Part shown: piece by piece, positions 3,434-39,448 of the stretch
Layout: every line of letters starts with the position of its first letter
Position numbering within the stretch: the first letter of the stretch is position 1
Assembly (NCBI GenBank): GCA_008011715.2
Contig: CP136508.1
Span: 1,054,001-1,118,000, forward strand
DNA: 64,000 bases
From: [Empedobacter] haloabium
GTDB lineage: Bacteria; Pseudomonadota; Gammaproteobacteria; Burkholderiales; Burkholderiaceae_D
Direction: 5' to 3'
Notes under the pieces: model-generated
The model's input: the letters and a program-made list of their open reading frames with translations, nothing else
Databases searched by the model: none
Told to the model about the DNA's origin: nothing
Program-made: the position numbers and the translations under genes

Positions 3434-3475
3434 GCAAAGCTCTCAGCCCTGCTTGGGCACCACTAGGGAGATACT

Positions 3476-6193: not shown

Positions 6194-6215
6194 GACGCAT
6201 TCCAAGGAGATTGCC

Positions 6216-6803: not shown

Positions 6804-7358
6804 CGCGGCCAGCCAGGCAGCCAGCTCGGCGGCGGCGGCTGGCGACGGGGCGGCGGGCCGGATGTCCAGGTAGCGTCCCGGCCCGGTCCGCCCCAGCAGC
6901 CGGAACGACTTGCCGTGCAGCGTGCGCGCGCCGTACTGCACGATCACGATGTCGCTGCCGCCGGCGGCTGGCGCCACGTGGACGATGAACGTGGCGCGGT
7001 AGTCGTTGCCGTCCTGGCGCCAGTGGTAGTCGCTGGCGGGCAGGATGACGACATCGTGGCGGCGTTGTGCCGGCGGCAGCGCCAGCCAGGCGGACAACGC
7101 CGGCGTCGGTGTTTCGCCGCGCAGCTCGCCATCGGGCGGGAATAGCGGATGGGAAAAGGGGTAGGCCTGGCGGTAGCGCAGCGCCAGCGGGTGGCTGGAC
7201 GGCACGCGTGCCACCCCGGCCAGGATGGCGGCGGACACGCGTTCCGGCGCCAGCGCGACGTGCAGCCGCGGCGATGCGTCCGATGGGAATGACGGGCTGG
7301 CGTACAAGCCCGTGCAACATGCCAGCGCGACGATTGAAATCATGCGCGCGCCGGTCAT
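6762..7358 (-). CDS. Hypothetical exported protein at the end of the stressosome operon
   Basis: 198 residues. It starts only 4 bases after the stop of the hybrid kinase, so it is probably the last gene of that operon. The N-terminus (MISIVALACCTGLYASP, from an internal Met at residue 6) looks like a secretion signal. The middle has a charged segment, RHDVVILPASDYHWRQDGND, and a predicted beta region. I do not recognise the family. It converges with and overlaps the PEP-CTERM gene by 42 bp, which is unusual but possible. A compositional artefact is a minor alternative, though the coupling to the upstream stop supports a real gene. Confidence 0.55.
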   Translation of the reverse strand: MTGARMISIVALACCTGLYASPSFPSDASPRLHVALAPERVSAAILAGVARVPSSHPLALRYRQAYPFSHPLFPPDGELRGETPTPALSAWLALPPAQRRHDVVILPASDYHWRQDGNDYRATFIVHVAPAAGGSDIVIVQYGARTLHGKSFRLLGRTGPGRYLDIRPAAPSPAAAAELAAWLAALPELAAPARRQQP

Positions 7359-7362
7359 CGCA

Positions 7363-8887
7363 TCACGGCCGCATCAGGCCGCGCACCGTCTCGTTCAGCG
7401 TTTCCATGTTGACGGGCTTGGTCAGGTGGCGATTGAAGCCGGCCGCCATCGCGCCGGCGCGGTCCTTGTCCTGGCCATAGCCGGTCAGCGCCACCAGGAT
7501 GGTCTTTTGCAACTGCGGATAGCCGCGCATCTTTTCCGCCACTTCGACGCCGCTCATGTCCGGCAGGCCGATGTCGAGGAAGATCACGTCCGGCGCCAGC
7601 CGCAAGGCGGCCTCGATGGCGCCGGCGCCATCGTGCGCCATGTGCACGTCGTGACCGGCGAACTGCAGCAGGGCGGAGACGATTTCGGCCGAGTCGATGT
7701 TATCGTCCACCACCAGGATGCGGTAGCTGTCGGCGCGCTTGTCCGGCTCCACGGCGGGGCTGTCGACCGCCTCGTCCTGCGGCGTGCGCACCAGCATCGG
7801 CAGGTGTACCTCGAACGTGGCGCCCTGGCCCAGCCCGGGGCTCTCGACCCGCACTTCGCCGCCGTGCAGGTTGACGAGCGTGCGCACCAGCGAGAGGCCA
7901 ATGCCCAGGCCATCCTGCACCCGGTCGGGCGAATGGCCGGCCTGCGCGAACAGGTCGAAGATCGACCCGGCCTGATCAGGATCGATGCCGATGCCATTGT
8001 CGCTGACGCGGATCACGGCCTGCGCATCTTCCACGCTGGCCGCCAGCGTGATCCGCCCGCCCGGCGGCGTGAATTTAGCAGCGTTATTGAGCAGGTTGCC
8101 CACGATCTGGGCCAGGCGCACGCTGTCGCCGTCGACCCAGATCTCGTGGTCGGGCAGCTGCACCGTCAGCACGTGCTGGCGGCCGGCCATGTTGGGTTCG
8201 GCCGTTTCGACGGCGGTGCGCAGCAGCGCGCACAGCTCCAGCGGCGCGCGGCGCAAGGCGATCTTCCCTTGCGAGATGCGCGAGACGTCCAGCAGGTCGT
8301 CCACCAGCCGTACCATGTGGTCGGTCTGGCGCAAGATCACGCGGCGCGCGTTTTCCTGCGCGGGCGTAGCGTGCGGATCGAGACTGCGCAGCAGCTCGAC
8401 GGCATTGCGGATCGGTCCCAGCGGGTTGCGCAGCTCGTGCGCGAGGATGGCCAGGAACTCGTCCTTGCGGCGGTCCATCTCGCGCAGCTCCCGTTCCACC
8501 CGGCCCAGGCGCAGCAGCGCGCGCACGTTGGCGACCAGCTCCTCCGGCTCGATCGGCTCGAACAGGTAATTATCCGCGCCGCTGTCCAGCGCGCGCACCT
8601 TGTCCGGCGACGACAGGTAGGAGGCGGACGTCTGCAGCACCAGCACCATCGCCGTGAGCGGGTCCTGCTTGAGCTGGCGGCACACCTCGAAGCCGTTCAG
8701 GTCGGGCAGCTTGGTGTCGAGCAGTACCAGGTCCGGCGCCTCGACGTGTGCCTTCTCCAATGCCTCCGCGCCGCTGCCGGCTTCGGTGACGCGAAAGCCG
8801 GCGCGCTGCAGGATCCGCGTCTTGGCGTAGCGGGCCGCATCGGTGTCGTCGACGTTCAGGATCAGGGGGGAGCGCGGGTACCTTCAT
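7363..8887 (-). CDS. REC-HisKA-HATPase-REC hybrid histidine kinase with an apparent 1-base frameshift near the start
   Basis: The protein has a receiver domain (phospho-acceptor Asp in DLVLLDTKLPD), a HisKA domain (H-box HELRNPLGPIRNAVELL), an HATPase domain (DNGIGIDPD, GLGIGLSLV) and a second receiver (ILVVDDN, DVIFLDIGLPD). The first receiver starts LILNVDDTDAARYAK, but no ATG, GTG or TTG precedes it in frame. The ATG at 8887, placed 7 bases after the upstream stop, reads MKVPALP and is one base out of phase. The G run at 8865-8870 (C on the coding strand) has six bases, and five would join the frames perfectly. The first in-frame start otherwise is TTG at 8760, which would remove half the receiver. 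The cause could be sequencing error, mutation or phase variation. Confidence 0.8.
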
Positions 8888-8894
8888 GATTTCT

Positions 8895-10646
8895 CTAGTG
8901 TACATGACACAGGGCGTTCAATTGTGCCAACAGATCCTCCCGTGCGACCGGTTTCGCCAGGTAGGCGTCGGCCCCCAGCGAGAACGCTTTCTGGCGGTCG
9001 GCGACCTCGGAGGCGATGATGACGGGAACGTGCTTGCGCCGCTCGTCGTTCTTGGTCTGCGCCAGCCAGCGCCAGCTGTCCTCGCCGTGCAGGTAGAGAT
9101 CGAGGATGACGGCGGCCGGTTCCTGCGCGGCCCAGGCTTGCTCCGCTTCCCACATGCTGCGCGCGCAAACGGCGCGGTAGGGCGTGTTGCGGAAGAAGCT
9201 GCGGTACAGCAGCATCGTCGAACGATCGTCCTCGACCACCAGCACGGGAATACCGGCGGTGTCGGCCGGCGCCAGCGTGCCGCGGAACGCCAGCGGATCG
9301 GGCATCGTGTCGTACGCGAGCGGGATGGTGGCGGAGAACGTCGAGCCCTTACCTGGCGCGCTGCGCAGCGTGACGGAACCGCCCAGAAGTCCGGCCAGGC
9401 GGCGGCACAGCGGCAGGCCGAGGCCCGTGCCCTTGACCTTGTGCTGCAGGCGGTTCTCGACCTGCGAGAACTCCTCGAAGATGATCTGCTGGTGCTCTTC
9501 GGCGATGCCGATACCGGTGTCCTCGACGTCGAAGCGTACCGCGTCGCCTTTCGGCAGCACCGTCGCGCCGACCTTCACGTAGCCGCTTTCGGTGAACTTC
9601 AGCGCGTTCGAGATGAAATTGCGCAGGATCTGCGACAGCTTGGCCTCGTCCGTCATCATCGTGATGGGCGTGGCGAGTTCGTCGAACAGCAGTTCGACCT
9701 TGCTGCTGACCAGCAGCGGGCGCAGCATGCCGCGCAGCGCCGAGAACATGTCGCCCACCTCGAAAGCGACCGGGCGCACGTCGATCTTGCCCGCCTCGAT
9801 CTTCGCCAGGTCGAGCAGGTCGTCCACCAGTTCGGTCAGCGACTCGGCGCCCTTCAGGATGAACTTCACCTGCTTTTCCTGTTCCGGCGTCAGCTCGCCG
9901 TCGACCCGCTCCAGCAACAGCCGCGACAGCGCGCGGATCGAGCTCAGTGGCGTGCGGAACTCGTGGCTCATATTGGACAGGAAACGCGTCTTCATTTCGT
10001 CCGCGCGGCGCAGGTGGTCGGCCTTCTCGTCCAGCTCCGCGTACAGCGCGACGACACCGCGGTTGGTGTCCTCCAGCTCGCGCGTCAGCTGCACCAGTTC
10101 GTCCTGGCGTGTCTTCAGCTCGGACAGGGTGGCGAGCAGCTCCTTGTTCTGCTGCTGCATCTCGGCCAAGGTCACGTTGGGCGAGAGCGCCACCAGCTGG
10201 GCCCCCATCGCGCCGATCGCGACCGGGGTGACCAGCGGCGCATCGTGCGGCAGCAGCTTCTTCAGCGTGACGACGGTGCCGCCGCTGCCCGTGCGGATGT
10301 CGAACTGGTCCATCAGGCGGCGCGCGCCCAGGATGCCCATGCCCATGCCGGTGCGCGACTGGTAGCGGCCGGACAGCACCAGGTCCACGTCGGCGATGCC
10401 GGGGCCCTGGTCTTCGATGCGGATCACCAGCAGCTGCGGCACCGTCTCGCCCTCGATCGAGAATTCGACGCGGCCGCTGCCGGCGTAGTTGTAGACGTTG
10501 CGTGCCAGTTCCGAGACGGCGGTGGCGATGCGGGCCTGATCCTGGTTGGCGAAGCCGCACAGCTGGGCGATCTGGCGTGCGCGCTGGCGCGACGTCACCA
10601 CGTCCAGCTCTTCTCGCACCGCCAGGTTGAGGATGCGCAGGCTCAT
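8895..10646 (-). CDS. Hybrid sensor kinase: RsbT-like ATPase domain-HisKA-HATPase-REC
   Basis: 583 residues from the ATG that overlaps the upstream stop (ATGA). The N-terminus (about 1-135) is an RsbW/RsbT-type GHKL ATPase domain (ATAVSELARNVYNY, EDQGPGIADVD, GMGMGILGARRLMDQ). A coiled-coil linker follows (EMQQQNKELLATLSELKTRQDEL). Next come HisKA (MSHEFRTPLSSIRALS), HATPase (DTGIGIAEEH, GTGLGLPLCRRLAG) and a C-terminal receiver (LVVEDDRSTM, AAVILDLYLHGED). The stressosome-type switch domain is thus fused to a phosphorelay kinase, which suggests the stressosome output enters two-component signalling here. There is no membrane segment, so it should be cytoplasmic. Confidence 0.88.
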   Translation of the reverse strand: MSLRILNLAVREELDVVTSRQRARQIAQLCGFANQDQARIATAVSELARNVYNYAGSGRVEFSIEGETVPQLLVIRIEDQGPGIADVDLVLSGRYQSRTGMGMGILGARRLMDQFDIRTGSGGTVVTLKKLLPHDAPLVTPVAIGAMGAQLVALSPNVTLAEMQQQNKELLATLSELKTRQDELVQLTRELEDTNRGVVALYAELDEKADHLRRADEMKTRFLSNMSHEFRTPLSSIRALSRLLLERVDGELTPEQEKQVKFILKGAESLTELVDDLLDLAKIEAGKIDVRPVAFEVGDMFSALRGMLRPLLVSSKVELLFDELATPITMMTDEAKLSQILRNFISNALKFTESGYVKVGATVLPKGDAVRFDVEDTGIGIAEEHQQIIFEEFSQVENRLQHKVKGTGLGLPLCRRLAGLLGGSVTLRSAPGKGSTFSATIPLAYDTMPDPLAFRGTLAPADTAGIPVLVVEDDRSTMLLYRSFFRNTPYRAVCARSMWEAEQAWAAQEPAAVILDLYLHGEDSWRWLAQTKNDERRKHVPVIIASEVADRQKAFSLGADAYLAKPVAREDLLAQLNALCHVH

Positions 10647-11677
10647 GGCGTCCACCCCTGGCGGTCGCGCAGTGCCAATACCGTCACGTCATCGCGCCCG
10701 CGCGTGAAGTCGCGGTACAGCACCCCGGCGATGACGGCCGGGTGGCAGCGCGCCAAGCCGGGGTAGTCGCCCAGGTTCCAGCGCGCCGTCAGGCCATCCG
10801 AATGCAGCACCAGCAGGCTGTCCGCATCCCACGGCGCGGCGAATTCCTGCACCTTGCGCATATTGCTGCCGACGATGCCGTTGTGCGACAACAGCTGGCG
10901 CCGGTCGTCGCCGCCGAACAGGTGCGCGCTGATGTTGCCGATGCCGGCGAACGTCAGCTCGTCGCGCAGCATGTCGAAACGCACCGCTGCCACGGCGGCG
11001 CCGCGCGTGGCGCGCAGTGCCGCATGGGCGTCGTCCAGGATGATGGCGGCGCCTTGGTGTGCGCCTTGCATCGCCACCGCGCAGGCCAGTTCGGAAGCCT
11101 CGGCGGCCAGCGGGCCGTGGCCGAGGCCATCGGCCACGATGGCGGTGGCGCTGGTGGCGTCGCCGGCCAGCGCCCAGCTGTCGCCGGCCACTTCCTCGCC
11201 GCGCATCGGCAGGCACACCGCGCCGCAGTGCAGCGCGCGTTCGGGACGCACGGCGCCGCGCTGCCACAGCGCCATCATGACGACGGTGCCCTTGCCGGGT
11301 GCGCTCCAGATGTCGAACTCGCAGGCCAGGCGCTGCATGGCGCCCATGCCGACGCCGTAGCTGCCCGCCGTGGAGGTGCCGTCCGCCATGCTGTCCGCCA
11401 GGCTGGTGATGCCGGGGCCGCGGTCCAGTGCCAGGATTTCGATGCCGTGCGCGTCGCCGCAGCGCAGTGGCCGCAGCAGGATCTCGCCATGGCCGGCATG
11501 TTTCAGCACGTTGGTGGCGGCCTCGCTGACGACGATGGCGACCTCGCCGGCGTCGGTCTCGTCGAAGCCCAGGCGCGCGCACAGGTCGGCCGCGGCGCGG
11601 CGCACCGAACCGACCTGGCTCGCCTCGGCCACGGGATGACAGGTCTGCCTGCCTTGTGCCGCTAGAACGGTTTCCAT
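10643..11677 (-). CDS. RsbT-like ATPase fused to SpoIIE/RsbX-type phosphatase
   Basis: 344 residues. An N-terminal anti-sigma-type HATPase domain (about 15-140; VSEAATNVLKHAGHGE, DRGPGITSL, YGVGMGAMQRLA) is joined to a PP2C-like SpoIIE/RsbX phosphatase domain (about 150-340). The metal-site motifs are GDSW, VADGLGHGP and FTRGRDDVTVL. In Bacillus, RsbX dephosphorylates RsbR and RsbS to reset the stressosome, and this protein occupies the same place in the operon. It overlaps rsbT by 16 bp upstream and the hybrid kinase by 4 bp downstream, so the operon is translationally coupled. Whether the ATPase half acts as a kinase or only binds partners is unknown. Confidence 0.85.
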   Translation of the reverse strand: METVLAAQGRQTCHPVAEASQVGSVRRAAADLCARLGFDETDAGEVAIVVSEAATNVLKHAGHGEILLRPLRCGDAHGIEILALDRGPGITSLADSMADGTSTAGSYGVGMGAMQRLACEFDIWSAPGKGTVVMMALWQRGAVRPERALHCGAVCLPMRGEEVAGDSWALAGDATSATAIVADGLGHGPLAAEASELACAVAMQGAHQGAAIILDDAHAALRATRGAAVAAVRFDMLRDELTFAGIGNISAHLFGGDDRRQLLSHNGIVGSNMRKVQEFAAPWDADSLLVLHSDGLTARWNLGDYPGLARCHPAVIAGVLYRDFTRGRDDVTVLALRDRQGWTP

Positions 11678-12078
11678 TTGCTGATCTTTACTGTCGTGCC
11701 TTGGCCGGGTGCCGATTCGATGTCGAATTCGTCGGCCAGCCGCTTGGCGCCGGACAGGCCGAGGCCCATGCCGCCGCCGGTCGTGAAACCATCGGTAAGC
11801 GCCTGCTTCAGGTCCGGAATGCCGGGCCCGTGGTCGATGAAGGTCAGGCCGATCCCCTGGCGCATGCCATTCATCAGTTTCATCATGTGTGCTTCGCCGC
11901 CGCCGCCGTAGCGCAGCGTGTTGCGGGCCAGTTCGCTGGCCGCCGTGATCATCTTGGTCTGGTCGATCAGGCTGAAGCCGGCGGCGATCATCTGTTCGCG
12001 CACGGACTGGCGCAGCCGTACCACGTCCTCGTCGGACCGGATCGGCAGCACCAGCGCGTCGACGTCGTTATTGCTCAA
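11662..12078 (-). CDS. rsbT: Stressosome switch kinase RsbT
   Basis: 138 residues, the usual length of RsbT. The GHKL ATP-binding motifs are complete: N-box SELARNTLRYGGGGE, G1 box DHGPGIPDL and G2 box GGGMGLGLSGAKRLAD. RsbT phosphorylates RsbS and RsbR and, when released, activates a partner. No RsbU or sigma-B gene is nearby, so the partner here is probably one of the downstream kinases; that is inference. It starts 21 bp after rsbS and overlaps the phosphatase fusion. Confidence 0.88.
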   Translation of the reverse strand: MSNNDVDALVLPIRSDEDVVRLRQSVREQMIAAGFSLIDQTKMITAASELARNTLRYGGGGEAHMMKLMNGMRQGIGLTFIDHGPGIPDLKQALTDGFTTGGGMGLGLSGAKRLADEFDIESAPGQGTTVKISKWKPF

Positions 12079-12099
12079 GGAAGCCGCCTTTCGATGAGG

Positions 12100-12456
12100 T
12101 TAGTCCGCCTGCCGCTGGAGAAGGGCGACGCCTTTTTCCACGTTCAGTGCCGTTTGCACGCCATGCAGGGTCAGGCCCAGCTCCACCAGCGTGATGGCGA
12201 CGGCCGGCTGCATGCCGACCAGCACCGTGCGCGCGTCGAGCACGCGCGCCATCGCCGCCGTGTTGCTGATCATGCGGCCGATGAAGGAATCGACGATGTC
12301 CAGCGCCGAGATGTCGATCAGCACGCCGCGCGCGCGGTCCTTGACGATGCGGCTCGTCAGGTCGTCCTGCAAGGTCATGGCCAGGCGGTCGTGCATGTCG
12401 ACCTGGATGGTGACCAGCAGCAGGTCGCCCATCTTCAGAATGGGGATGCGTTCCAT
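12100..12456 (-). CDS. rsbS: Stressosome STAS-domain protein RsbS
   Basis: 118 residues from the ATG at 12456, seven bases after the rsbR stop; the frame is open another 14 codons upstream, but that part lies inside rsbR. It is a single STAS domain. Ser57 in DIVDSFIGRM corresponds to the RsbT-phosphorylated serine of Bacillus RsbS (Ser59). RsbS forms the core of the stressosome together with RsbR and sequesters RsbT. Its size and position between rsbR and rsbT match the canonical module. Confidence 0.9.
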   Translation of the reverse strand: MERIPILKMGDLLLVTIQVDMHDRLAMTLQDDLTSRIVKDRARGVLIDISALDIVDSFIGRMISNTAAMARVLDARTVLVGMQPAVAITLVELGLTLHGVQTALNVEKGVALLQRQAD

Positions 12457-12463
12457 GCGGGCC

Positions 12464-13330
12464 TCAGGCTGCCTTGTCGGTGCGGGTGACCGTCGCACCC
12501 ACGCGCTTCAGCGCCACCAGGAAGGCATCGGCCAGCGTCGCCTTGGTCGTCACGTCTTCCAGGTTGACGCCCAGGTGCACGATGGTCTGCGCGATCTGTG
12601 GGCGGATGCCGCTGATGATGCAGTCGGCGCCCATCAGGCGGGCGGCTGCCACGGTCTTGAGCAGGTGCTGGGCGACCAGCGTATCGACGGTCGGCACGCC
12701 GGTGATGTCGATGATGGCGATCGACGCGCCCGTCTCGATGATCTTCTGCAGCAGGTTTTCCATCACCACCTGGGTACGCGCGCTGTCCAGCGTGCCGATC
12801 AGCGGCAGCGCCAGCACGTCCTTCCACAGTTGCACGACGGGCGTGGACAACTCCAGCAGCTCCTGCTGCTGGCGCAGGATGACGTTCTCGCGGCCCTTCT
12901 GGTATTGCTCGACCGTGTACAGGCCCATGCGGTCGAACAGGGCGCCGCTGTCGGTCAGCTCCGCCGCCAGCGCGTTGGCGTCGCCGGCCAGCGCCGTGCG
13001 CAGCAGCGCGAACACCGGTTCCTTGAGGGCGAAGATGAACGTGGCCGTTTCGGTCGGCGAGTAGCCCTGGCGCACGCGCGCGGCGGACATCTCCGCCAGT
13101 TGTGCGCGCACGTCGGCAAACGCGGAAGCGTCGAAATCGTAGCCCTGGCCCTTCTCGACGGCCTTCACGACGAGCGGCAGGAAGCGGCTCGCATGCTGGC
13201 GGATGTCCGCTTCGGCGGCCTTGTCACGGCGCACCAGGCGGGACAGCATTCCGCCCAGCCAACCTTCCAGCAGGGCCTCCTGATTGTCATTGAGGATTTT
13301 GGCCAGGTGGCCGGTCGTTGCCATGCTCAT
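12464..13330 (-). CDS. rsbR: Stressosome sensor/scaffold RsbR
   Basis: 288 residues. The N-terminal helical sensor domain (about 1-150, RsbRD/globin-like fold) is followed by a linker helix (GRENVILRQQQELLELSTP) and a C-terminal STAS domain. Thr180 in PLIGTLDSART aligns with the first RsbT-phosphorylated threonine of Bacillus RsbRA, and threonines 210-217 (DITGVPTVDT) cover the second. No heme or flavin ligand can be assigned by eye. It is the first gene of the operon. The 140-bp gap upstream must hold the promoter, but I could not pick a convincing one. Confidence 0.9.
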   Translation of the reverse strand: MSMATTGHLAKILNDNQEALLEGWLGGMLSRLVRRDKAAEADIRQHASRFLPLVVKAVEKGQGYDFDASAFADVRAQLAEMSAARVRQGYSPTETATFIFALKEPVFALLRTALAGDANALAAELTDSGALFDRMGLYTVEQYQKGRENVILRQQQELLELSTPVVQLWKDVLALPLIGTLDSARTQVVMENLLQKIIETGASIAIIDITGVPTVDTLVAQHLLKTVAAARLMGADCIISGIRPQIAQTIVHLGVNLEDVTTKATLADAFLVALKRVGATVTRTDKAA

Positions 13331-29699: not shown

Positions 29700-30947
29700 T
29701 CATTCGATGCTGGCCAGCGTGGCGGCCCTGGCCGGGAGGATCGGGATGCGCGCGGCTGGCGGCGCCCAGCCGAACAGCTGTTCGCACGCGGCCGCGCAGG
29801 TGCTGCCCTGGCACGGGCCCATGCCCACCCGTGTGGCCAGCTTCGCCTCGCGCCAGTCGCGCCAGGGCGCCAGCTCGGCCGCTGTGACGTCCTCGCAGCG
29901 GCAAACGATGGTGTCGGGCTGGCACAGCGCGCGCCAGGCGGGGCGCGGCGCGAAATGGCGCGCCAGCAGGGCTGCGAAATCCTGCGCTCGCCGCAACGCG
30001 CGCAGGTCGGCCCCGGACGGCGCCAGCCCCAATGCATGCAAGGCGGCGACGCGGCCCTGGGCCAGCGCCTGGTCCACGCCGCCGCCCCCCGTGCATTCGC
30101 CGGCGGCCCAGATATGTGGGACGGTGGTTTGCTGGCGCTCGTCCACCCGCAACGCACCGCGTTCGACGGCGCAGCCGAAGGCCTGGCCCAGTTCCGTATT
30201 GGGCAGCAGGCCGAAGGCGGCGGCGAGCAGATCGCAGTCGTATGCCGTGCGCCCGCGCGCCGTCTCGACGACGATCGTGCGCAGCGTCGCGTCGCCTGTG
30301 GCCTCGACCACCAGCGCGTCCGTCAAGTAGGGTATCGGCCGCAGCTGCGCGAAGAGTTGCGCGGCCTGGCGCAGCTTGTCGTGGTGGCGCAGCGCAAGGC
30401 CCAGGCCGAAGCGCGCCAATGCCGCGCGCGGCTGGTGCTCGACGATGGCCACCACCTGCGCGCCCGCCGCCAGCGCGGTGGTGGCGCTGGCCAACAGGAG
30501 CGGACCGGAGCCGGCGACGACGACCTTGCGCCCCCGTACCGGCAGGCCGCCTTTGATCAGCGCCTGCAGGCCGCCGGCGCCCGTCACGCCGGGCAGGGTC
30601 CAGCCGGGGAACGGCACGAAGCGTTCGCGCGCCCCGGTGCACAGCAGCAGCCGTTCGAACGGCACGCGAGTGCCGCCCGCATCGCTTTCCAGCAGCAGCG
30701 TGCGCGCATCGGCCGCGCCGACGACGCGGGTGTCGCGCACGTGGATAAAGTCGGGATGATCCTGCAACGTGGCCCACAGCGCATCGGCGGCGGGCGCGTT
30801 CCAGGTACCGGGACCGCCGCGCCAGACCTGGCCGCCGGCGGCTCGGTGGTCGTCGATCAGGCAGACCTGGGCACCGCCCAGCACGGCCGCGTGCGCGGCT
30901 GCCAGCCCGGCCGGGCCGCTGCCGACGATGTGCAGCGTAGGGTTCAT
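29700..30947 (-). CDS. FAD/NAD-binding subunit of D-hydroxyproline dehydrogenase (HcnB-like)
   Basis: 415 residues from the ATG in an ATGA overlap with the 2Fe-2S subunit. Rossmann FAD motif GSGPAGLAAAHAA is at the N-terminus; a second nucleotide site GSGPLLLASATTALAAGA lies in the middle. The C-terminal bacterioferredoxin-type cysteine cluster reads CRCEDVT...GMGPCQGSTC. This is the HcnB / opine-oxidase alpha-type architecture. With a 2Fe-2S protein and a DAO-type flavoprotein it forms the three-subunit dehydrogenase that oxidises cis-4-hydroxy-D-proline in hydroxyproline catabolism. Hydrogen-cyanide synthase is the alternative for the set, but the deaminase and epimerase neighbours favour hydroxyproline. 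Confidence 0.82.
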   Translation of the reverse strand: MNPTLHIVGSGPAGLAAAHAAVLGGAQVCLIDDHRAAGGQVWRGGPGTWNAPAADALWATLQDHPDFIHVRDTRVVGAADARTLLLESDAGGTRVPFERLLLCTGARERFVPFPGWTLPGVTGAGGLQALIKGGLPVRGRKVVVAGSGPLLLASATTALAAGAQVVAIVEHQPRAALARFGLGLALRHHDKLRQAAQLFAQLRPIPYLTDALVVEATGDATLRTIVVETARGRTAYDCDLLAAAFGLLPNTELGQAFGCAVERGALRVDERQQTTVPHIWAAGECTGGGGVDQALAQGRVAALHALGLAPSGADLRALRRAQDFAALLARHFAPRPAWRALCQPDTIVCRCEDVTAAELAPWRDWREAKLATRVGMGPCQGSTCAAACEQLFGWAPPAARIPILPARAATLASIE

Positions 30948-31201
30948 GCCAATGTCCCCGTCTGGATCTGCATGCCATCGCGGCAGGCGGTACGGCACGC
31001 CAGCACGTGGGGCTGACCGTCCACAGTGACGCGGCACTCCTGGCAGCGGCCCATCCCGCACAGGGCGAAGCGGCACTGGCCCGTCATGGAGGTGCGGGTG
31101 CGCAACGTGCCGGCCGTGACGATGGCGGCGACGACGCTGGCGCCGGCCGGGACCGTGACGGCGATGCCATCGATCGTCACGCTGCAGCTACGTTCAGTCA
31201 T
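30944..31201 (-). CDS. 2Fe-2S ferredoxin-like subunit of D-hydroxyproline dehydrogenase
   Basis: 85 residues. The [2Fe-2S] motif CRFALCGMGRCQECRV plus a distal Cys in VLACRT is the HcnA-type ferredoxin fold. It overlaps the DAO subunit gene by 8 bp and the FAD/NAD subunit gene by 4 bp, so stoichiometric coupled translation is expected. It probably carries electrons between the two flavin subunits of the complex. Confidence 0.85.
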   Translation of the reverse strand: MTERSCSVTIDGIAVTVPAGASVVAAIVTAGTLRTRTSMTGQCRFALCGMGRCQECRVTVDGQPHVLACRTACRDGMQIQTGTLA

Positions 31202-32306
31202 AGAGGAATCTCGCTGGTGAATAAGGGTCCGGGTCGATGGCGGTGGGCTGCCCGGCCATCAGGTCCGCCAGCAGCAGGGCGGTGCCGAACGCCGTCGTCA
31301 CGCCCAGGCCTTCGTGCCCGGTCGCCAGCCAGGTGCGTGGCCGGCTCGGATGGGCGCCGATGACGGGCCGGCCGTCCGGACTGGCCGGGCGCATGCCGGT
31401 CCAGGAACGGATGACCTGCATTCGCGCCAGTTCCGGCAGCAGGGCGATGGCGCTGCGCAGCACGGCCGCCAGCACCTTGGGATCGACGGCGGCGTCGGCG
31501 ATGCCGTCCTGCCGGCACGAGCCGATCAGCCACTGGCCCGTGGGGCGCGGCTGCACGTTGGCCGCCACCGCCAGGCCGTCCGCGCCGGCCGCCGCCTGCC
31601 CATAGCCCATGCTGACCACCTGGTGGCGCAGGCGGCCGGGATAGCGGTCCGTGATGGCCAGGTGGCCCTTGCGGGGGAACACCGGTATGTCCGGCAGCAG
31701 CGCCGTGGTGGCGCAGCCGGCCGCCACGACGACGTCGTGCGCGTCGAGGCGCTCACCCGTTTGCAGGTGTACACAGCCGGCGCCGATGCCGGTGATGGGG
31801 GCACCGAACAGCGTGGCGCCGCCCAGCGCCGTCAACTGGATCGCCAGGTCGCGCGCGACGGCCGGCGGGTAGACCACGCCGTCCGGCAGAACGCGCACGG
31901 CGCCGGCCAGTCCTGGCCTCAACGCCGGTTCCGCCGCCGCCAGCTGCATGGGTGAGAGCTGATCGGCATGCCAGCCGCGCCGCGCCAGCCGCTCCGCCCG
32001 GGCGGCGGCATGGGCCAGCTGGTCGTCGTCTTCCGCCACCCACAGCGTGCCGCAGCGCACGTGTTCGGCGCGCTGGCCGTGTTCCGCGACATAGCGGTCC
32101 CACAGGCGCAGCGACAGCAGGCACAGGTCCAGTTCATCCTCCGACTCGTCCAGCGCGACCAGGTGGCCCATGCCGGCGGCGGTCGTGCCGCCGCCGGGCC
32201 CGAGCCGGTCCACCAGCAGCACTTGCCGCCCGCGCGCCTGCAGCTCGACGGCGCACGCGGCGCCGACGATGCCGGCGCCGACCACGATCACGTCAGGATG
32301 CGTCAC
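31194..32306 (-). CDS. DAO-type FAD oxidoreductase, catalytic subunit of D-hydroxyproline dehydrogenase
   Basis: 370 residues, starting at GTG in a GTGA overlap with the deaminase stop. FAD-binding VIVVGAGIVGAACAVELQARG is at the N-terminus, and the C-terminal flavin motif is TGHEGLGVTTAFGTALLLADL. The fold is glycine oxidase / D-amino-acid oxidase (DAO). In hydroxyproline pathways this subunit dehydrogenates cis-4-hydroxy-D-proline to 1-pyrroline-4-hydroxy-2-carboxylate, the substrate of the deaminase encoded just upstream. No transmembrane anchor is evident. Confidence 0.85.
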   Translation of the reverse strand: MTHPDVIVVGAGIVGAACAVELQARGRQVLLVDRLGPGGGTTAAGMGHLVALDESEDELDLCLLSLRLWDRYVAEHGQRAEHVRCGTLWVAEDDDQLAHAAARAERLARRGWHADQLSPMQLAAAEPALRPGLAGAVRVLPDGVVYPPAVARDLAIQLTALGGATLFGAPITGIGAGCVHLQTGERLDAHDVVVAAGCATTALLPDIPVFPRKGHLAITDRYPGRLRHQVVSMGYGQAAAGADGLAVAANVQPRPTGQWLIGSCRQDGIADAAVDPKVLAAVLRSAIALLPELARMQVIRSWTGMRPASPDGRPVIGAHPSRPRTWLATGHEGLGVTTAFGTALLLADLMAGQPTAIDPDPYSPARFLYD

Positions 32307-33199
32307 GCCAGCACGGGCAGAGCGGGGCGCTTGGCGATGGCGGTGCGGATGACCTGCTCGACCTGTTCGCGCCGTGCGCCCGTCAGCGGCAGGCGCGGTG
32401 CGCGCACGCGGTCGTTGGAGCCGATGGCGATCTGCTCGGCCAGCTTGATGTTCTGCACCAGGTAGGTCGACACGTCCAGGTCCAGCAGCGGCCGGAACCA
32501 GCGGTAGATGTCGAGCGCTTCGCGCTGCCGGCCGGCGCGCATCAGGCGGTAGATCGCCACCGTCTCGGCCGGGAAGGCCAGGCACAGGCCGGCGACCCAG
32601 CCGGTAGCGCCGACCGCCAGCGCCTCGAACGCCAGGTTGTCCACGCCCGTCAGCAGGGCGAAGCGGTCGCCGAAGTGATTGATGATGTCCGTGCTGCGGC
32701 GGATGTCGTCGGACGATTCCTTGACCGCGACGAACAAATCGATCTTCGCCAGTTCTTCCATGATCGGGATCGTCACGTCGACCCGGTAGGCCAGCCGGTT
32801 CGAATAGATCATGATGGGCAGCTCGCTGGCACTGGCGATCGCCGTCAGCGTCGCCACCGTCTCGCGCGGGTCGGTATGGTAGATCGTGCTCGGCACGACC
32901 ATCAGGCCGTCGGCGCCGGCGCGCGCGGCCTTGCGCGCCAGTTCGCATGCGTCGCGGGTCGCGGCCTCCGCAATCGTCAGCAGCGCCGGCTTCGTGCCGC
33001 TGACCTGTTTGCACAGGCGCAGCACCTCGATGCGCTCGTCGTGCGACAGCATCGGGCCTTCGCCCAGTGAGCCGCAGGCGATCAGGCCGTCCACGCCCGC
33101 GTCCATCTGCAACTGGAAGCAGCGCAGCATCTCGTCCCGGTCAAGCGTGCCGTCGTCCGTGAATTTCGTCGTGACCGCTGGAAGTACTCCGTTCCACAT
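32303..33199 (-). CDS. Dihydrodipicolinate-synthase-family 1-pyrroline-4-hydroxy-2-carboxylate deaminase
   Basis: 298 residues, the usual DHDPS length. TIM-barrel motifs: CGSLGEGPML (phosphate/carboxylate site), Tyr132 in IMIYSNR, and Schiff-base Lys160 in FVAVKESS. In hydroxyproline catabolism this enzyme deaminates and dehydrates Pyr4H2C to 2-oxoglutarate semialdehyde. It is the first gene of the leftward operon, with ribosome-binding site AAAGGAA before ATG 33199 and the promoter at 33227-33255. Family-level identity is firm; the substrate rests on the operon context. The semialdehyde dehydrogenase that completes the path is not in the window. Confidence 0.85.
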   Translation of the reverse strand: MWNGVLPAVTTKFTDDGTLDRDEMLRCFQLQMDAGVDGLIACGSLGEGPMLSHDERIEVLRLCKQVSGTKPALLTIAEAATRDACELARKAARAGADGLMVVPSTIYHTDPRETVATLTAIASASELPIMIYSNRLAYRVDVTIPIMEELAKIDLFVAVKESSDDIRRSTDIINHFGDRFALLTGVDNLAFEALAVGATGWVAGLCLAFPAETVAIYRLMRAGRQREALDIYRWFRPLLDLDVSTYLVQNIKLAEQIAIGSNDRVRAPRLPLTGARREQVEQVIRTAIAKRPALPVLA

Positions 33200-33226
33200 G
33201 ACTATTCCTTTCGTTTGAAAGCATCC

Positions 33227-33292
33227 ATGCTACGGCGCCCGGCCGTGCGGGTCTTGCGCGCAGCGCGCCACCGACACGCCGAAATCGGCACA
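33227..33292 (-). promoter_or_regulatory. Promoter and regulator box of the hydroxyproline operon
   Basis: On the minus strand: -10 TAGCAT (33227-33232), a 17-bp spacer, -35-like AAGACC (33250-33255), and upstream box TGTGCCGATTTC (33281-33292). The promoter at 35097 has the same elements with the same -10/-35 spacing and the same 33-bp offset between CGGGTCTTG and GAAATCGGCACA. The weak -35 suggests an activator, probably the AraC-type protein encoded next door. Confidence 0.65.
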
Positions 33293-33376
33293 AGCGTGGC
33301 GCGCACGTCGCATGCCGCTCCCGCGCGTTTGCCAAGCCCCGCCAAAGCCACTATATTCGCCAGCAGGGAGGGAGAG

Positions 33377-34126
33377 ATGATCGATACAGGAGGCTTGGCC
33401 GATCTCGCGACGGTCGGTATCGAAGCGGTGGAGACGATGTTCGACGGCTTGAACGATATCGCGTTCTTCATCAAGGACAGGGAAGGGCGCTACCTCAGCA
33501 TCAACCACACGATGGTGCGGCGCTGCAGGGCGCGGCACAAGCACGAGGTGATCGGCAAGACGGCGCTGGAACTGTTCCCGCGCGCGCTGGCCGAATCGTA
33601 TTTCGCGCAGGACCGCAAGGTGATGGACAGCGGCGAAGGGATCGACAAGCACCTGGAACTGCACCTCTATCCGGGCCGCAGCCGCGGCTGGTGCATCACG
33701 CGCAAGATGCCCTTGCGCGACCAGGATGGTGCGGTGGTGGGCCTGATCGGCACGTCGCGCGACCTGGGCCTGCCGGACGAGCTGCATCCCGCCTATCGCC
33801 AGATCGCCGAGATCGCCCAGTACATCCGCGAGCACTACCGGCAGACCGTGTGCCTGAAGGAGCTGGCCGCGCAGGCCGGCTTGTCGCTGTCGCGCGTCGA
33901 GCGGTTGTTCCAGAAGGTGTTCCATCACTCGCCCCGGCAGCTGTTGCTGCAGTGCCGGCTGTCCGCCGCACGCGAGATTATCGCCAGCAATCCCGGCATC
34001 CGCATCGCGGAGGTGGCGTACGAATGCGGCTATACGGACCACAGCGCTTTCAGCCGCCAGTTCAAGGCCTACGTCGGCATGAGCCCCACCCAGTATGGCC
34101 AGCAGGTCGAGCGCGGCCTGAAGTAG
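33377..34126 (+). CDS. PAS domain / AraC-type regulator of the hydroxyproline genes
   Basis: 249 residues from the ATG preceded by GGGAGGGAGA. A PAS-type sensor (about 20-125; IAFFIKDREGRYLSINHTMV, GLIGTSRDLG) is followed by an AraC/XylS DNA-binding domain: first helix-turn-helix CLKELAAQAGLSLSRVERLF, second IRIAEVAYECGYTDHSAFSRQF. It is divergent from the catabolic operon and ends 2 bp from the convergent epimerase gene. By position it should activate both leftward promoters through the GAAATCGGCACA box; that is inference. Confidence 0.88.
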   Translation: MIDTGGLADLATVGIEAVETMFDGLNDIAFFIKDREGRYLSINHTMVRRCRARHKHEVIGKTALELFPRALAESYFAQDRKVMDSGEGIDKHLELHLYPGRSRGWCITRKMPLRDQDGAVVGLIGTSRDLGLPDELHPAYRQIAEIAQYIREHYRQTVCLKELAAQAGLSLSRVERLFQKVFHHSPRQLLLQCRLSAAREIIASNPGIRIAEVAYECGYTDHSAFSRQFKAYVGMSPTQYGQQVERGLK

Positions 34127-34127
34127 C

Positions 34128-35066
34128 TCAGGCGCCGGCGATGCCCCCGGCGAATGGGTCGTCGTCCTCGAACACGAGCCTTGCTTCGCCGCTGATCCAT
34201 GCGCGGCCGCGGATGGTCGGCGCGATCCGTGCGCCGATGCGCCGGTAGCTGGCCTCGAACACGCTGCCGATGATGCTCTCCTGCCGCCACACCTGGCCTT
34301 CGGCCAGCCTGCCGTCCGCCGCCAGGCAGGCCAGCTTGGCGCTGGTGCCCGTGCCGCAGGGGGAGCGGTCGTAGGCCTTGCCGGGGCATAGCACGAAGTT
34401 GCGGCTGTCGGCCTGTTGCGAAGGGCCGAACAGCTCCACGTGATCGATCGCCGCGCCATCGGCGCCCGTGATGCCCTGTTCGTGCAGGGCCTGCATCACG
34501 GCCTGCGCGAACGCGGCCAGCGCGCCGATATTGCGCGCCTCCACCGCCAGGCCATGCTGTCCGACCAGGAAAAACCAGTTGCCGCCCCAGGCGATATCGC
34601 CGATCACGGTGCCGAAGCCGGGCACTGCCACAGCCCTCTGCTTGGCCAGCCGCCAGGACGGCACGTTGTCGACGCTGACGGAGCCGTCCGCATGCAGATC
34701 CGCGACCACCACGCCGACCGGTGTGTCGATGCGATGCCGGCCCGGCCCGATACGCCCCAGGTGCGCCAGCGATTTCACCAGGCCGATGGTGCCGTGGCCG
34801 CACATGCCAAGATAGCCTGCGTTATTGAAGAAGATCACGCCGGCCACGCAATCGTCGGCATGCGGCGCGCACAGCAGCGCGCCGACCAGCACGTCCGACC
34901 CGCGCGGCTCGCAGACAGTGCCGGTGCGTACGGCGTCGTGGCTGGCCCTGAAGCGCTCCAGCCGTTCGGCCAGCGGGCCGGTGCCGAGGTCGGGTCCCCC
35001 TTCCACGATCAGGCGGGTGGGTTCGCCACCGGTATGGGAATCGATGATCGTCAGCGTCTTGGTCAT
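34128..35066 (-). CDS. 4-hydroxyproline 2-epimerase (proline racemase superfamily)
   Basis: 312 residues. Both catalytic cysteines are present: Cys89 in GMCGHGTIG and Cys237 in [11 protein letters not shown]. Two cysteines indicate an epimerase or racemase; trans-3-hydroxyproline dehydratases have Thr at the second site. The enzyme converts trans-4-hydroxy-L-proline to cis-4-hydroxy-D-proline, feeding the dehydrogenase. It has its own promoter (35097-35125) that copies the layout of the catabolic operon promoter. It is divergent from the collagenase gene. Confidence 0.9.
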
Positions 35067-35096
35067 GTGGCCTGCAATGGTGAGTGTGTGGCGACA

Positions 35097-35162
35097 AGGC
35101 TACAGTCGGCACCCGTCCGGGTCTTGGCGGTTTGCGGGACGGTTCGCGGCGAAATCGGCACA
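35097..35162 (-). promoter_or_regulatory. Promoter and regulator box of the epimerase gene
   Basis: Minus-strand -10 TAGCCT (35097-35102), 17-bp spacer, -35-like AAGACC (35120-35125), and upstream box TGTGCCGATTTC (35151-35162). The box lies 85 bp from the ATG, against 82 bp in the promoter at 33227. A shared GCATGCCG follows at 35179-35186. Confidence 0.65.
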
Positions 35163-35185
35163 GTTGGCCGGATGGCGCGCATGCC

Positions 35186-35227
35186 GTGCCGATTTGGGCG
35201 GCGCCTCTGGCGAAAGTGGCACAAGCG
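35186..35227 (+). promoter_or_regulatory. Extra regulator boxes facing the collagenase gene
   Basis: An inverted copy GTGCCGATTTG is at 35186-35196 and a direct copy GAAAGTGGCACAAGCG at 35212-35227. The direct copy is identical at 14 of 16 positions to GAAATCGGCACAAGCG at 33281. It lies 78-93 bp upstream of the collagenase ATG, suggesting the same regulator also controls it. Confidence 0.5.
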
Positions 35228-35304
35228 CCGCGATGACATTTCGCTACCATCTGCTGACCCGGCCGCATGCGTGTCGGGACTCATAACTAATCATCGGAGA
35301 CACT

Positions 35305-37926
35305 ATGTACTTGGCAAAGACAGCGGCAAGGCACCGGCATTGGCTATTGATGTCCGCATTCGCGGCGGCGGGACTGGCCAGCGTGGCGGCAACGGCGGCG
35401 CCCGCGCCGCAAACGGCGGACGAGATGCAACAGGCGCAGGCGCGGGCCGAACGCAAGGAGCGCAATCCCAAGGTGGCGAAGATCGAGGACCTGTACCGGG
35501 GCGGCCACCACCAGAAACGCGCGCTCGATGCGAGCGAGCGCAAGCCGAGCGTGGCGCCCAGCACCAACGCCTACCTGAAATACGGCGACGATCCGGACCA
35601 GCAGTTGGAAAGCCGGGCGCTGGTGCGGCCATCGCAGGCGCTCTCGCGCGGCGTGGCCGGCCTCGACGCCAACGCCACACTGGCGGCGTGCGACACGGGC
35701 CTGTTCGCGAACGCCAGCGGGTCCGCGTTGGTCAACGCCGTCAAGTCCAGCACGAGCGACTGCATCAACACGCTGTTCGGCGTGACCGGCACCACGGCCG
35801 GCGCCATCTTCAGCGAGGGCAAGATGGTCACGATCGCCAACGCCTTCGCCAGCGCCGCCGCGTCCTACGACGGCACCAACGCCGGCAGCACGCTGCAGCT
35901 GGTGATGTTCCTGCGCGCCGGCTACTACGTCAATTACTACGACGGTGCCTCCACCGGGCCGTACGGCACCAGCTTGAAGACGGCGATCCGCGCCGCGCTC
36001 GACGCCTTCGTCAACAACCGCAACTTCGGCCTGGTCAACGACGCCCATGGCGAGACGCTGGCCGAATTCGTCACGCTGATCGACAGCTCGTCGGAAAACG
36101 CGCGCTACCTGAACACCGTCGTCAAGCGCCTGCTGAACGGGTTCGACAGCCGCGCCGCCGACTCGTGGTGGATGCGTTCGGCCACCAACAACGCCTTCAC
36201 GGTGCTGTTCCGCGGTCACCAGAATGCCGACTTCCAGGCGCTGGTGAAGGCGGATGCTTCGATCATCGACACGCTGTACAACTTCGCCAACGCGCATTTC
36301 GACCTGCTCGGTAGCGATGACGGCTACCTGGTGGCCAACGCGGGCCGCGAGCTGGGGCGCTTCCTGCAGTATGCGGACAACACGGCCGCGAAGCCGCTGG
36401 CGCGCTCGCGCGCCAAGGCGCTGATCGACCGCAGCAGCATCACCGGTGCCAGCGCCGCGCTGTGGGTGGGCCTGGGTGAGCAGGTCGACTTCTACGACAA
36501 GGCCAACTGCAGCTACTACAATATGTGCAATTTCAGCACGCGCCTGGCCACGGAGGTGCTGCCGATCAGTCATAGCTGCAGCCCGACCTTGCGCCTGCGC
36601 GCCCAGGCGCTGACGCGCGCCCAGCTCGTCGAGGCTTGCACGATCGTCGGCGGCGAGGAGTCCTACTTCCACAATGCCGTCGCCTCGGGTGCCGTGCCCG
36701 TCGCCAACGACAACAACGCGCAACTGGAGATGGTGGTGTTCGCGAGCAGCCAGGACTACGCCACCTATGCCGGCGCCATCTACGGCATCGACACCAACAA
36801 CGGCGGCATGTACCTGGAAGGGAACCCCAGCGCGGCGGGCAACCAGGCGCGCTTCATCGCCTACCAGGCCGAGTGGCTGCTGCCGAAGTTCGAGATCTGG
36901 AACCTGACGCACGAATACATCCACTACCTGGACGGCCGCTTCGACATGTACGGCGACTTCAATGCCGCCATGAGCGTCAACTCGGTGTGGTGGGTGGAGG
37001 GCTTTGCCGAGTACATGTCGTACGGCTACCGCAACGTGTCGTACGACGCGGCCAAGAGCCAGGCCGCGGCGGGTACGTATGCCCTCAGCACGATCTTCAG
37101 GAACGACTACAACTCGGGCCAGGCGCGCGTCTACAACTGGGGCTACCTGGCGGTGCGCTACATGTTCGAGAAGCAGCGTGCCAAGGTGTCGAACGTGCTG
37201 GGCTACTTCCGGCCCGGGAACTACCAGGGCTATGCGAGCTACATGAACAGCGCAAGCATGGGCTCGAGCATGGATGCCGACTTCCGCAACTGGCTGCCGT
37301 GCGTGAACGATCCGTCGCTGCCGCAGTGCGCGGGCAACGCGGCGCCGGTGGCGGACTTCACCACGACCGTGTCCGGCCTGACGGCGAAGTTCACCAGTAC
37401 CGCGACGGACAGCGATGGGCGCGTCGCCAGCTGGTCGTGGCATTTCGGCGACGGCACCACGTCCACCGCCGCCAATCCGTCGAAGACCTACACCACGGCC
37501 GGCACCTACACGGTGACGCTGACGGTGACCGACGACAAGGGCGCCAAGTCGGCCGTCAAGTCACGCACCGTTACCGTCAGCGGTGGCGCCACCTTGCCCG
37601 AGTGCCCGGGCGTCGCGGCGCAGCTGGGCCGCAACTGCGTGCGCTCGAACCTCTCGGCCAGCGCCGGGAATTACGCCTACATGTACCTGCTGGTGCCGGC
37701 CGGCACGCAGCAGATCCGCTTCACCAGTTCCGGCGGTACGGGTAACGCCGACATGTATGCGAGCACGCTGGGACAATGGGCCACGCGCGACTACTACAAC
37801 TATGGGTCGTACAACCCGGGCAACAGCGAATCGGTCGTCGTCTACAACCCGCCGGCCGGATATATGTACATCAGCCTGTACGGCCAGTCGGCATTCTCGG
37901 GAGCCCAGTTGAAGGTCGAGTTCTGA
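35305..37926 (+). CDS. Secreted M9 collagenase with PKD and PPC domains
   Basis: 873 residues with a signal peptide (about 1-32, ending VAATAA). An activator-type helical region (about 100-400) precedes the M9 peptidase domain. Its zinc motif is HEYIH (536-540) with a downstream glutamate Glu565 in WWVEGFAEYMS. A PKD domain (about 683-765; SWSWHFGDGTTS) and a pre-peptidase C-terminal (PPC) domain (about 770-873) give collagen binding. It digests native collagen outside the cell and releases hydroxyproline-rich peptides. The hydroxyproline genes stand immediately upstream. Ribosome-binding site CGGAGA at 35295-35300; terminator at 37948. Confidence 0.9.
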   Translation: MYLAKTAARHRHWLLMSAFAAAGLASVAATAAPAPQTADEMQQAQARAERKERNPKVAKIEDLYRGGHHQKRALDASERKPSVAPSTNAYLKYGDDPDQQLESRALVRPSQALSRGVAGLDANATLAACDTGLFANASGSALVNAVKSSTSDCINTLFGVTGTTAGAIFSEGKMVTIANAFASAAASYDGTNAGSTLQLVMFLRAGYYVNYYDGASTGPYGTSLKTAIRAALDAFVNNRNFGLVNDAHGETLAEFVTLIDSSSENARYLNTVVKRLLNGFDSRAADSWWMRSATNNAFTVLFRGHQNADFQALVKADASIIDTLYNFANAHFDLLGSDDGYLVANAGRELGRFLQYADNTAAKPLARSRAKALIDRSSITGASAALWVGLGEQVDFYDKANCSYYNMCNFSTRLATEVLPISHSCSPTLRLRAQALTRAQLVEACTIVGGEESYFHNAVASGAVPVANDNNAQLEMVVFASSQDYATYAGAIYGIDTNNGGMYLEGNPSAAGNQARFIAYQAEWLLPKFEIWNLTHEYIHYLDGRFDMYGDFNAAMSVNSVWWVEGFAEYMSYGYRNVSYDAAKSQAAAGTYALSTIFRNDYNSGQARVYNWGYLAVRYMFEKQRAKVSNVLGYFRPGNYQGYASYMNSASMGSSMDADFRNWLPCVNDPSLPQCAGNAAPVADFTTTVSGLTAKFTSTATDSDGRVASWSWHFGDGTTSTAANPSKTYTTAGTYTVTLTVTDDKGAKSAVKSRTVTVSGGATLPECPGVAAQLGRNCVRSNLSASAGNYAYMYLLVPAGTQQIRFTSSGGTGNADMYASTLGQWATRDYYNYGSYNPGNSESVVVYNPPAGYMYISLYGQSAFSGAQLKVEF

Positions 37927-37973: not shown

Positions 37974-38167
37974 CTTTCTGTGGCGCCTCAGCCGCGGTCC
38001 GCGGATCGATGCACAGAGGAATTTGTTGTATTTAAGCCATATTTTGCAATTGAGCAGCGTCAAATGCCATTCTGCATTAGCAAATCGCTATAGTATTTCG
38101 GGTTGCTGAACAAATTGGCAACGACCTCTCGTTGCGGTGCCGGGAACCTCAAGTAGCAGTCAGACCG

Positions 38168-39448
38168 ATGACAAAATTTCAATGCCATTACGAAGTCCTG
38201 AAAGTGACGCGTGACGCCCCCGCCGAGGTGATCCGGGCGGCCTATCGTTCCCTGTCCCAGAAACATCATCCGGACAAGAACGTCGGCAACCCCGAGGCCG
38301 CGCGCGTGATGGCGCGCCTGAACGCCGCCTACAGCGTGCTGTCGGACGCGGAGCAACGGGAACTGTACGACTACCAGATCCTGCACGGCCATGGTTCCGG
38401 CCAATACGAATACCACGAGTCCGCCAACGCGGGCGACTTCAATGGCGAGCCGGGGCGAGCCAGCGAGACGGCCGGGGGGCGCAACGGCAAAGCGCCCGAT
38501 TCGCTGCTGAACCGGGTCCGCGATTATGTCGCCGGACGGCACGGCCGGATCGCGGCCGTCCTGCTCGGATCGACCGCGATCGTGCTGGTGATCGTCGGGC
38601 GATCGAGCTGGCAGGAGCAGCAGTCGATGCGCTTGCTCGAACAGGCGGCCACTTATACGCCGGGCGCCGCGAGCGCGCCGCCCGTTGCCAGCGTCCCAAG
38701 CGGTCAGGCGGAAGTGGAACTGGTGGGCAAGGGCGCAGGCCAGGGCCGCGAGATCCCTGTGGCCCGCGCGACCGGGGACGAGCCGGCGCCAAAGGCGGAG
38801 GCGCCTGCCGCCGCACCGAAGGCGTCCGATTTCGAGCGCCTGACGGCCATGTTGAAGAGCATGGGCCTGGGCCTGCACAAGCTGGACCTGCCTGCAAAGG
38901 AAGCCAAGCCGAAGGAGACCGCGCCGAAGGAAACGACAGCGAAGGAAGACGCGCCCAAACCCGCGCAGGCGGAAAAGGCCGTCGTGGCGGCCAAGGCTGC
39001 CCCGACTCCGGTGGCACAACCTTCCAAGGCGGTGACGGAGGCCGGGCGTGGCCGCGACGAAGCCGAACGTGCCGCGCCGGACACCGCGCGCGTCGAGCCA
39101 AAGCCGCAAGCGGAGCCAAGCCGCGCCAGCGCCGCGGCATCGGCCAGCGCCAACGCGACGAGCAGCGCGCCGCGCCAGGCCCCCGTCGCCGACATGCGCA
39201 CCTGCGCGCCGCCGACGTACCCGCCGAAGGCGCACGCCGCCGGCGAAACCGGCACCGTGCAGGTGGCCTTGCTGGTGGCGGGCGACGGCCGCGTGATCGA
39301 ATCGAAAGTGCAGAAGTCGAGCGGCTCCTCCGAACTGGACAAGGCGGCGCGCAAGGCGTTCTCGCAGTGCCGCTTCAAGGTAGCGAGTGACGACAAGGAT
39401 GCCGATCCGGTGTGGGCGCGGCTGGAATACGTGTTCTCGCTGGACTGA
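38168..39448 (+). CDS. J-domain / TonB C-terminal domain membrane chimera
   Basis: 426 residues. An N-terminal J-domain (about 5-68) has the HPD triad (34-36) and a YDYQ helix IV end. One transmembrane helix (about 128-145; IAAVLLGSTAIVLVIVG) leaves the J-domain in the cytoplasm. A long Ala/Lys/Pro/Glu-rich periplasmic spacer follows (about 150-340). Residues 342-426 form a TonB-C domain (PPTYPPKAHAAGETGTVQVALLV, SSGSSELDKAARKAFSQCRF). A DnaK co-chaperone is thus tied to an energy-transducer-like tail. No ExbB/ExbD genes are adjacent. The function is unknown; it could connect chaperone activity with the envelope. Start taken at the ATG at 38168, where the J-domain begins. Confidence 0.85.
   Translation: MTKFQCHYEVLKVTRDAPAEVIRAAYRSLSQKHHPDKNVGNPEAARVMARLNAAYSVLSDAEQRELYDYQILHGHGSGQYEYHESANAGDFNGEPGRASETAGGRNGKAPDSLLNRVRDYVAGRHGRIAAVLLGSTAIVLVIVGRSSWQEQQSMRLLEQAATYTPGAASAPPVASVPSGQAEVELVGKGAGQGREIPVARATGDEPAPKAEAPAAAPKASDFERLTAMLKSMGLGLHKLDLPAKEAKPKETAPKETTAKEDAPKPAQAEKAVVAAKAAPTPVAQPSKAVTEAGRGRDEAERAAPDTARVEPKPQAEPSRASAAASASANATSSAPRQAPVADMRTCAPPTYPPKAHAAGETGTVQVALLVAGDGRVIESKVQKSSGSSELDKAARKAFSQCRFKVASDDKDADPVWARLEYVFSLD

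Follow-up and report, generated by a model that had tools for sequence, protein, structure and literature searches.

A shared promoter layout at hydroxyproline genes beside an LhpR-type PAS-AraC regulator gene, with a probable variant at a collagenase gene

Two hydroxyproline promoters in the window—the whole stretch of 64,000 nucleotides of [Empedobacter] haloabium DNA that was analysed—are built to one plan: on the transcribed (minus) strand, both read TGTGCCGATTTC-N24-CAAGACC-N17-TAGCMT. Judged from the DNA and its counterparts in relatives, this plan is likely to be the operator-promoter of an LhpR-type PAS-AraC activator, whose predicted regulon would reach the deaminase-dehydrogenase operon, the epimerase gene, and probably an M9 collagenase gene.

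The regulator of PAS-AraC (LhpR) type (33377..34126, plus strand) has 249 residues and features a PAS_4 domain at residues 22-130 and an HTH_18 domain at residues 163-242, both over the Pfam cut-off. Its gene adjoins those of a proline racemase, a DHDPS-type deaminase, and an FAD oxidoreductase. The DHDPS-family protein (32303..33199, minus strand) is assigned by context as pyrroline-4-hydroxy-2-carboxylate deaminase. On the same strand lie an ORF with an FAD-dependent oxidoreductase (DAO) domain from residue 241 (31194..33014), the true start of which is internal, and an FAD/NAD(P) oxidoreductase gene (Pyr_redox_2; 29700..31076), the third gene of a probable operon. The member of the proline racemase family (34128..35066, minus strand) is taken by context as hydroxyproline epimerase. 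The M9 collagenase (35305..37926, plus strand; 873 residues, with PKD and PPC domains) is the only strong M9 match in the genome. Just past it, the ORF at 38132-39448 combines matches to a DnaJ domain and to a TonB C-terminal domain, which is an unusual fusion. The regulator gene has a likely sigma-70 promoter, TTGCCA-N17-TATATT (33329..33357, plus strand); a promoter of this form occurs in 11 of the 16 relatives' loci checked and is unmatched in L022, L026, L032, L033, and L034.

At the deaminase operon, the minus strand carries the box TGTGCCGATTTC at 33281..33292, the CAAGACC element in the -35 position at 33250..33256, and the -10-like hexamer TAGCAT at 33227..33232, offset by 60 from the start of the box. 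The epimerase promoter repeats this on the same strand with the box at 35151..35162, CAAGACC at 35120..35126, and TAGCCT at 35097..35102, again at offset 60; the identical architecture that had been proposed for the two promoters is thereby confirmed in box, spacers, CAAGACC, and -10 offset. Read on the other elements of the original prediction, GAAATCGGCACA stands at 33281 and 35151, CGGGTCTTG starts 33 bp ahead of it at both sites, and GCATGCCG starts 29 bp past the 33281 copy and 28 bp past the 35151 copy. The last of these, put forward as a third shared element, is not conserved: GCAAGTCG replaces it in G065, and G070 has none at that place. A tandem repeat 21-22 bp past the box, as in AraC-like sites, was looked for by eye in the hydroxyproline promoters and was not visible. 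AAA at offset 28-30, a possible inverted half-site, can be seen by eye in many epimerase and sister-collagenase promoters, not in deaminase promoters.

A motif scan of the whole genome (6,478,808 bases), which the original prediction had proposed, finds two exact copies of the 12-mer box, both in this window and both at the two promoters. With one mismatch allowed, there are 21 places in all versus 7 for the reversed control. The composite TRTGCNNATTTC-N24-CAAGACC with up to three mismatches occurs at 14 places versus 6 for the control; only the deaminase and epimerase promoters have zero mismatches, and the next-best place has two. Seven of 12 weak composite places elsewhere in the genome were inspected, and none has TANNNT at offset 60. 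Within the window, the bare 12-mer with up to two mismatches is found 8 times against a mean of 5.05 expected, no excess over chance; the strength of the signal, therefore, lies in the composite and its conservation.

A regulator search yielded 13 named loci in Massilia, Telluria, and Pseudoduganella, 12 with the deaminase operon and one (L022) with an orphan regulator, and the promoters of these loci were compared with those of the window and of three genus genomes. The box, the CAAGAC element, and the -10 hexamer lie at the same offsets in all 16 deaminase promoters and in 13 of the 14 epimerase promoters compared; in the fourteenth (L026), the -10 is shifted one base later. The box differs by 0 to 4 mismatches among the compared promoters, and L033 reads CAAGAAA. 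The L033 epimerase promoter, at the edge of its locus, falls outside the comparison of 14 and was seen in the scan of 17 genomes; L034 has no epimerase in its locus, and L022 has neither deaminase nor epimerase. Unchanged spacing is found beside PAS-AraC (LhpR-type) genes in Massilia, Telluria, Pseudoduganella, Burkholderia, Paraburkholderia, and Caballeronia. The functional selection suggested from two promoters alone thus finds support before orthologous genes, and the box, whose absence upstream of orthologues in related strains would have counted against it, is conserved there.

Across 17 whole genomes with one mismatch allowed, the pattern occurs at 33 places versus 2 for the reversed control, and 32 of the 33 are deaminase or epimerase promoters. 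The remaining one, at 12798 of L022 in Pseudoduganella guangdongensis, precedes a gene pair for a TonB receptor and a prolyl oligopeptidase beside the orphan regulator. Over 2626-12798 of that locus, the orphan LhpR-type regulator is flanked by a prolyl-oligopeptidase gene and two for TonB receptors, and the full operator at 12798 stands before one of these genes. A relaxed exact pattern is present in at least 103 of 392 family genomes, with no reversed-control place among the matches listed. That the shared layout arose by chance or by recent duplication of one promoter is so improbable as to be negligible: the chance-level count of the bare 12-mer in the window would fit it, and it is refuted by the 33 versus 2 places, the family-genome scan, and the composite counts in the genome itself. 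Moreover, the 24-bp and 17-bp spacers are not conserved in promoters of the window type, so the layout is not a copied stretch.

A scoring matrix was trained on 24 promoters, excluding those of the window, G028, and G065, with training scores of 29.5-46.3 bits. The genus has a second regulator clade, with 45-49% identity in the regulator, and in all 14 loci taken from it (L114-L127, our selection from the matches of the regulator and epimerase searches) the matrix recovers the epimerase promoter. It also finds one to three sites of at least 20 bits in five of six Burkholderia, Paraburkholderia, and Caballeronia loci (10 sites) and a single weak site of 16.5 bits in a Deinococcus locus; no operator is found at the loci of LhpR relatives in Variovorax, Pseudoalteromonas, and Caballeronia sp. 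M1242. The pattern offers a precise, searchable candidate operator for the PAS-AraC (LhpR-type) regulator family, and its very low background makes regulons readable from sequence. No published operator for the family is among the literature matches listed, a scope that does not take in Li and Lu 2016.

Regulator and operator go hand in hand across 55 genus genomes when presence of the regulator is taken as a match at E 1e-50 or better: among the matches listed, the pattern occurs in 50 of 50 genomes with the regulator and in none of the five without it. The epimerase gene, too, is missing from four of these five, so that only G078, which keeps the epimerase and misses both regulator and operator, separates the regulator from its target. 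The G078 epimerase locus (L128) and that of the second epimerase of G028 (L129), neither with a neighbouring regulator, contain no operator-like site as judged by the matrix (best scores of 3.9 and 0.8 bits). Together with the co-occurrence, these operator-free loci point to the PAS-AraC protein, proposed from the outset as the natural binder, as the likely binder of the operator.

Counting back from the -10 hexamer at offset 60, the predicted operator-promoter would have the box TRTGCNGATTTC at about -72 to -61, CAAGAC in the -35 place after 24 bp of free sequence, and a -10 of the form TANNNT. The invariant CAAGAC in place of TTGACA suggests a contact of the activator there. The regulator would sense hydroxyproline or an early metabolite of it, bind the box and probably also the CAAGAC element, and recruit RNA polymerase where a normal -35 is lacking. 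In the window it would act on the deaminase-dehydrogenase operon and on the epimerase gene; an operator at 35185-35250 would probably bring in the collagenase gene as well. Such wiring would form a feed-forward loop, in which collagen fragments release hydroxyproline and hydroxyproline calls for more protease and more catabolic enzymes. One sensor could then run the chain from collagen fibre to nutrient.

The probable collagenase operator is a variant of the plan and lies on the plus strand. Its box, CGTGCCGATTTG at 35185..35196, carries two mismatches, is in the right orientation, and has its counterpart in each of the two other genomes found to share the gene order of the window (G028 and G065); it is new relative to the original prediction. 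The -10-like TACCAT at 35245..35250, identical in G028 and G065, lies at offset 60 from this box—the same offset as at the deaminase and epimerase promoters. Between the two lies an inverted half-site, TGTGCCACTTTC on the minus strand at 35212..35223, which overlaps the collagenase -35 region and is kept in all three genomes with this gene order. The third box originally placed before the collagenase is this 35212 copy: its match to the deaminase box at 14 of 16 positions stands, against 11 of 16 for the epimerase box, and its orientation is inverted for a collagenase operator. Collagenase membership in the set thus finds support in substance, through the 35185-35196 box instead of the one at 35212 and with a much weaker score. 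The CAAGAC counterparts are degenerate, reading ACAAGCG (35221..35227, plus strand) in the window and ACAAGCC and ACAGGCA in the other collagenase promoters; in the proposed operator, the inverted half-site would overlap the CAAGAC place.

The collagenase promoters score 5.4 (window), 11.8 (G028), and 11.0 bits (G065) against the 29.5-46.3 bits of the training promoters. These scores are reached by 21, 2, and 2 of 1,349,463 non-site positions, which over some 173 intergenic-strand positions gives a chance expectation of about 0.003 for the window and about 0.0003 for each relative. The signal is, hence, good, though it falls well short of the hydroxyproline promoters; the three collagenase promoters are not independent since they come from close relatives. 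The operator could serve the two hydroxyproline promoters only, with the collagenase boxes being extra epimerase half-sites or chance matches and the collagenase controlled otherwise. The 35212 box is indeed oriented like an epimerase half-site, starting 61 bp upstream of the epimerase box, and the two mismatches, the degenerate CAAGAC, and the 5.4 bits in the window fit such a reading as well. We regard it as doubtful, however: all three genomes preserve TACCAT and both boxes, right-way and inverted, with variable bases in between, and the low chance expectations speak against coincidence. In addition, G070 has the hydroxyproline cluster with its epimerase operator but no collagenase there, and both extra boxes are missing from it.

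A different reading makes the 35212 box not a regulator site but the -24 element of a sigma-54 promoter that drives the collagenase. The sigma-54 consensus is TGGCAC-N5-TTGC, with GG-N10-GC, and TGGCAC and GG-N10-GC are indeed found in all three collagenase promoters. However, the -12 TTGC is missing in all three, which have CCGC, GCGC, and GGGC instead; GC at a given place is common in DNA of such G+C content, and Pfam shows no sigma-54 activator among the neighbouring genes tested. The part of PMC8264665 available reports that expression of lhpH in P. aeruginosa depends on NtrBC, which would lend the sigma-54 reading some weight; on balance, it is quite improbable.

Collagenases of the genus are accompanied by regulators of the same family. 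In 37 genus genomes searched, all 17 with a full M9 match have a PAS-AraC-family regulator as its neighbour. The 26 sister regulator loci, which comprise all matches at 58-64% identity in the regulator search, have an M9 collagenase directly downstream in every case, and these collagenases are 36-41% identical to that of the window. In a tree of the regulators, from which L102 was omitted because it duplicates L022, a branch supported at 78/85 has the sister regulators on one side. The window regulator clusters with those of G065 and G028 (100/99), nested among the hydroxyproline regulators of Massilia type. The sister collagenase promoters (L069-L083, L103-L113) carry a different operator, TGTGCNGWTC, followed at a greater distance by a -10-like TAGTAT or TAGCAT; by eye, they also show a repeat some 22 bp ahead of the box. 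In the distant G056, the 12-kb stretch around the M9 gene contains no PAS-AraC-family regulator.

The pattern also marks other genes in relatives, as read in 24 pattern loci beyond the epimerase promoters, of which L207 and L218 are one place. Since the loci of the 20-locus set and the family-scan places were picked by the pattern itself, its conservation there is not independent evidence; these additional targets extend the regulon and are no test of the operator. In 12 genus genomes, the pattern lies 71-96 bp before a gene for a GH127-family beta-L-arabinofuranosidase (L221-L229, L231, L208, L214), an assignment based on Pfam for four of them and on at least 78% identity of all twelve to L221 over the compared part. 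Enzymes of this kind act, according to the available part of the source, on arabinosides of plant hydroxyproline-rich glycoproteins. The position of the pattern suggests that these 12 genomes couple the breakdown of plant extensin to the sensing of hydroxyproline. Further places precede TonB receptors (G004, G014, G034, G087, G213) and M24 prolidase-like genes (G334, G286); in G334, the pattern also stands before a second proline-racemase family gene, a deaminase, and an epimerase. The matrix adds an operator at the TonB receptor beside the G012 collagenase locus. The operator-bearing TonB receptors of L218, L219, L220, and L230 are 85-86% identical to the L080 reference (9068-11980), and all five genomes with an L080-type receptor and operator carry the sister regulator and collagenase. 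The L080-type receptor is a candidate collagen-peptide receptor.

These targets raise a wider reading, to which we give about even chances: hydroxyproline would induce a regulon of modular build around one rigid operator, in which one PAS-AraC sensor controls the catabolic enzymes and each lineage adds front ends for the hydroxyproline polymers that it encounters. Animal collagen would be attacked by M9 collagenase and plant extensin glycans by GH127 arabinofuranosidase, and TonB receptors, prolyl oligopeptidase, and prolidase would deal with the peptides. The sister regulator linked to collagenases would, in this reading, have arisen as a duplicate devoted to control of the protease. Such a regulon predicts that soil bacteria induce extracellular collagenase by sensing hydroxyproline—the residue that marks these polymers—and that relatives possess a hydroxyproline-induced arabinosidase for plant glycoproteins.

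Among known systems, class II promoters of the AraC family (targets of AraC, RhaS, and XylS) feature an activator site upstream of and next to a poor -35, with strict spacing of this site to the -10. The hydroxyproline promoters of the window resemble them in the upstream site, the poor -35, and the strict -10 spacing but show no tandem half-site; conserved instead are one 12-bp box and CAAGAC 24 bp on. The closest named relative is LhpR (PA1261) of Pseudomonas aeruginosa, described in the accessible parts of PMC6608401 and PMC8694187 as an AraC-family activator of hydroxyproline catabolism and transport. Like LhpR, the window regulator is a PAS and AraC-type protein beside hydroxyproline genes. 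The window regulator shares 46% identity with a plasmid-borne P. aeruginosa homologue (L131), which adjoins transporter and proline racemase genes; unlike the window, this lhp-type stretch contains no collagenase, and the matrix finds no operator in it (best score -0.7). At 6700-7000 of L131, a sigma-54-like TGGCAC-N5-TTGC is seen by eye before the transporter gene, in place of an operator of the window type. Literature matches listed on collagenase or hydroxyproline with AraC-family control contained nothing relevant besides PMC6608401. According to the portion of that paper available, HypR of Streptomyces coelicolor places the hydroxyproline operon and the M9 collagenase gene SCO5912 under one hydroxyproline-responsive regulator, a GntR-type repressor with the site CTNTGC(A/C)ATGTCAC; wiring of this kind, therefore, exists. 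Unlike HypR, the window regulator is a PAS-AraC protein and presumably an activator, and its operator is unrelated to the HypR site given there. In the window, hydroxyproline genes and an M9 collagenase gene share a neighbourhood and, by the predicted operators, a layout, and may be under one regulator. If true here, similar wiring under an unrelated Streptomyces repressor would represent regulatory convergence.
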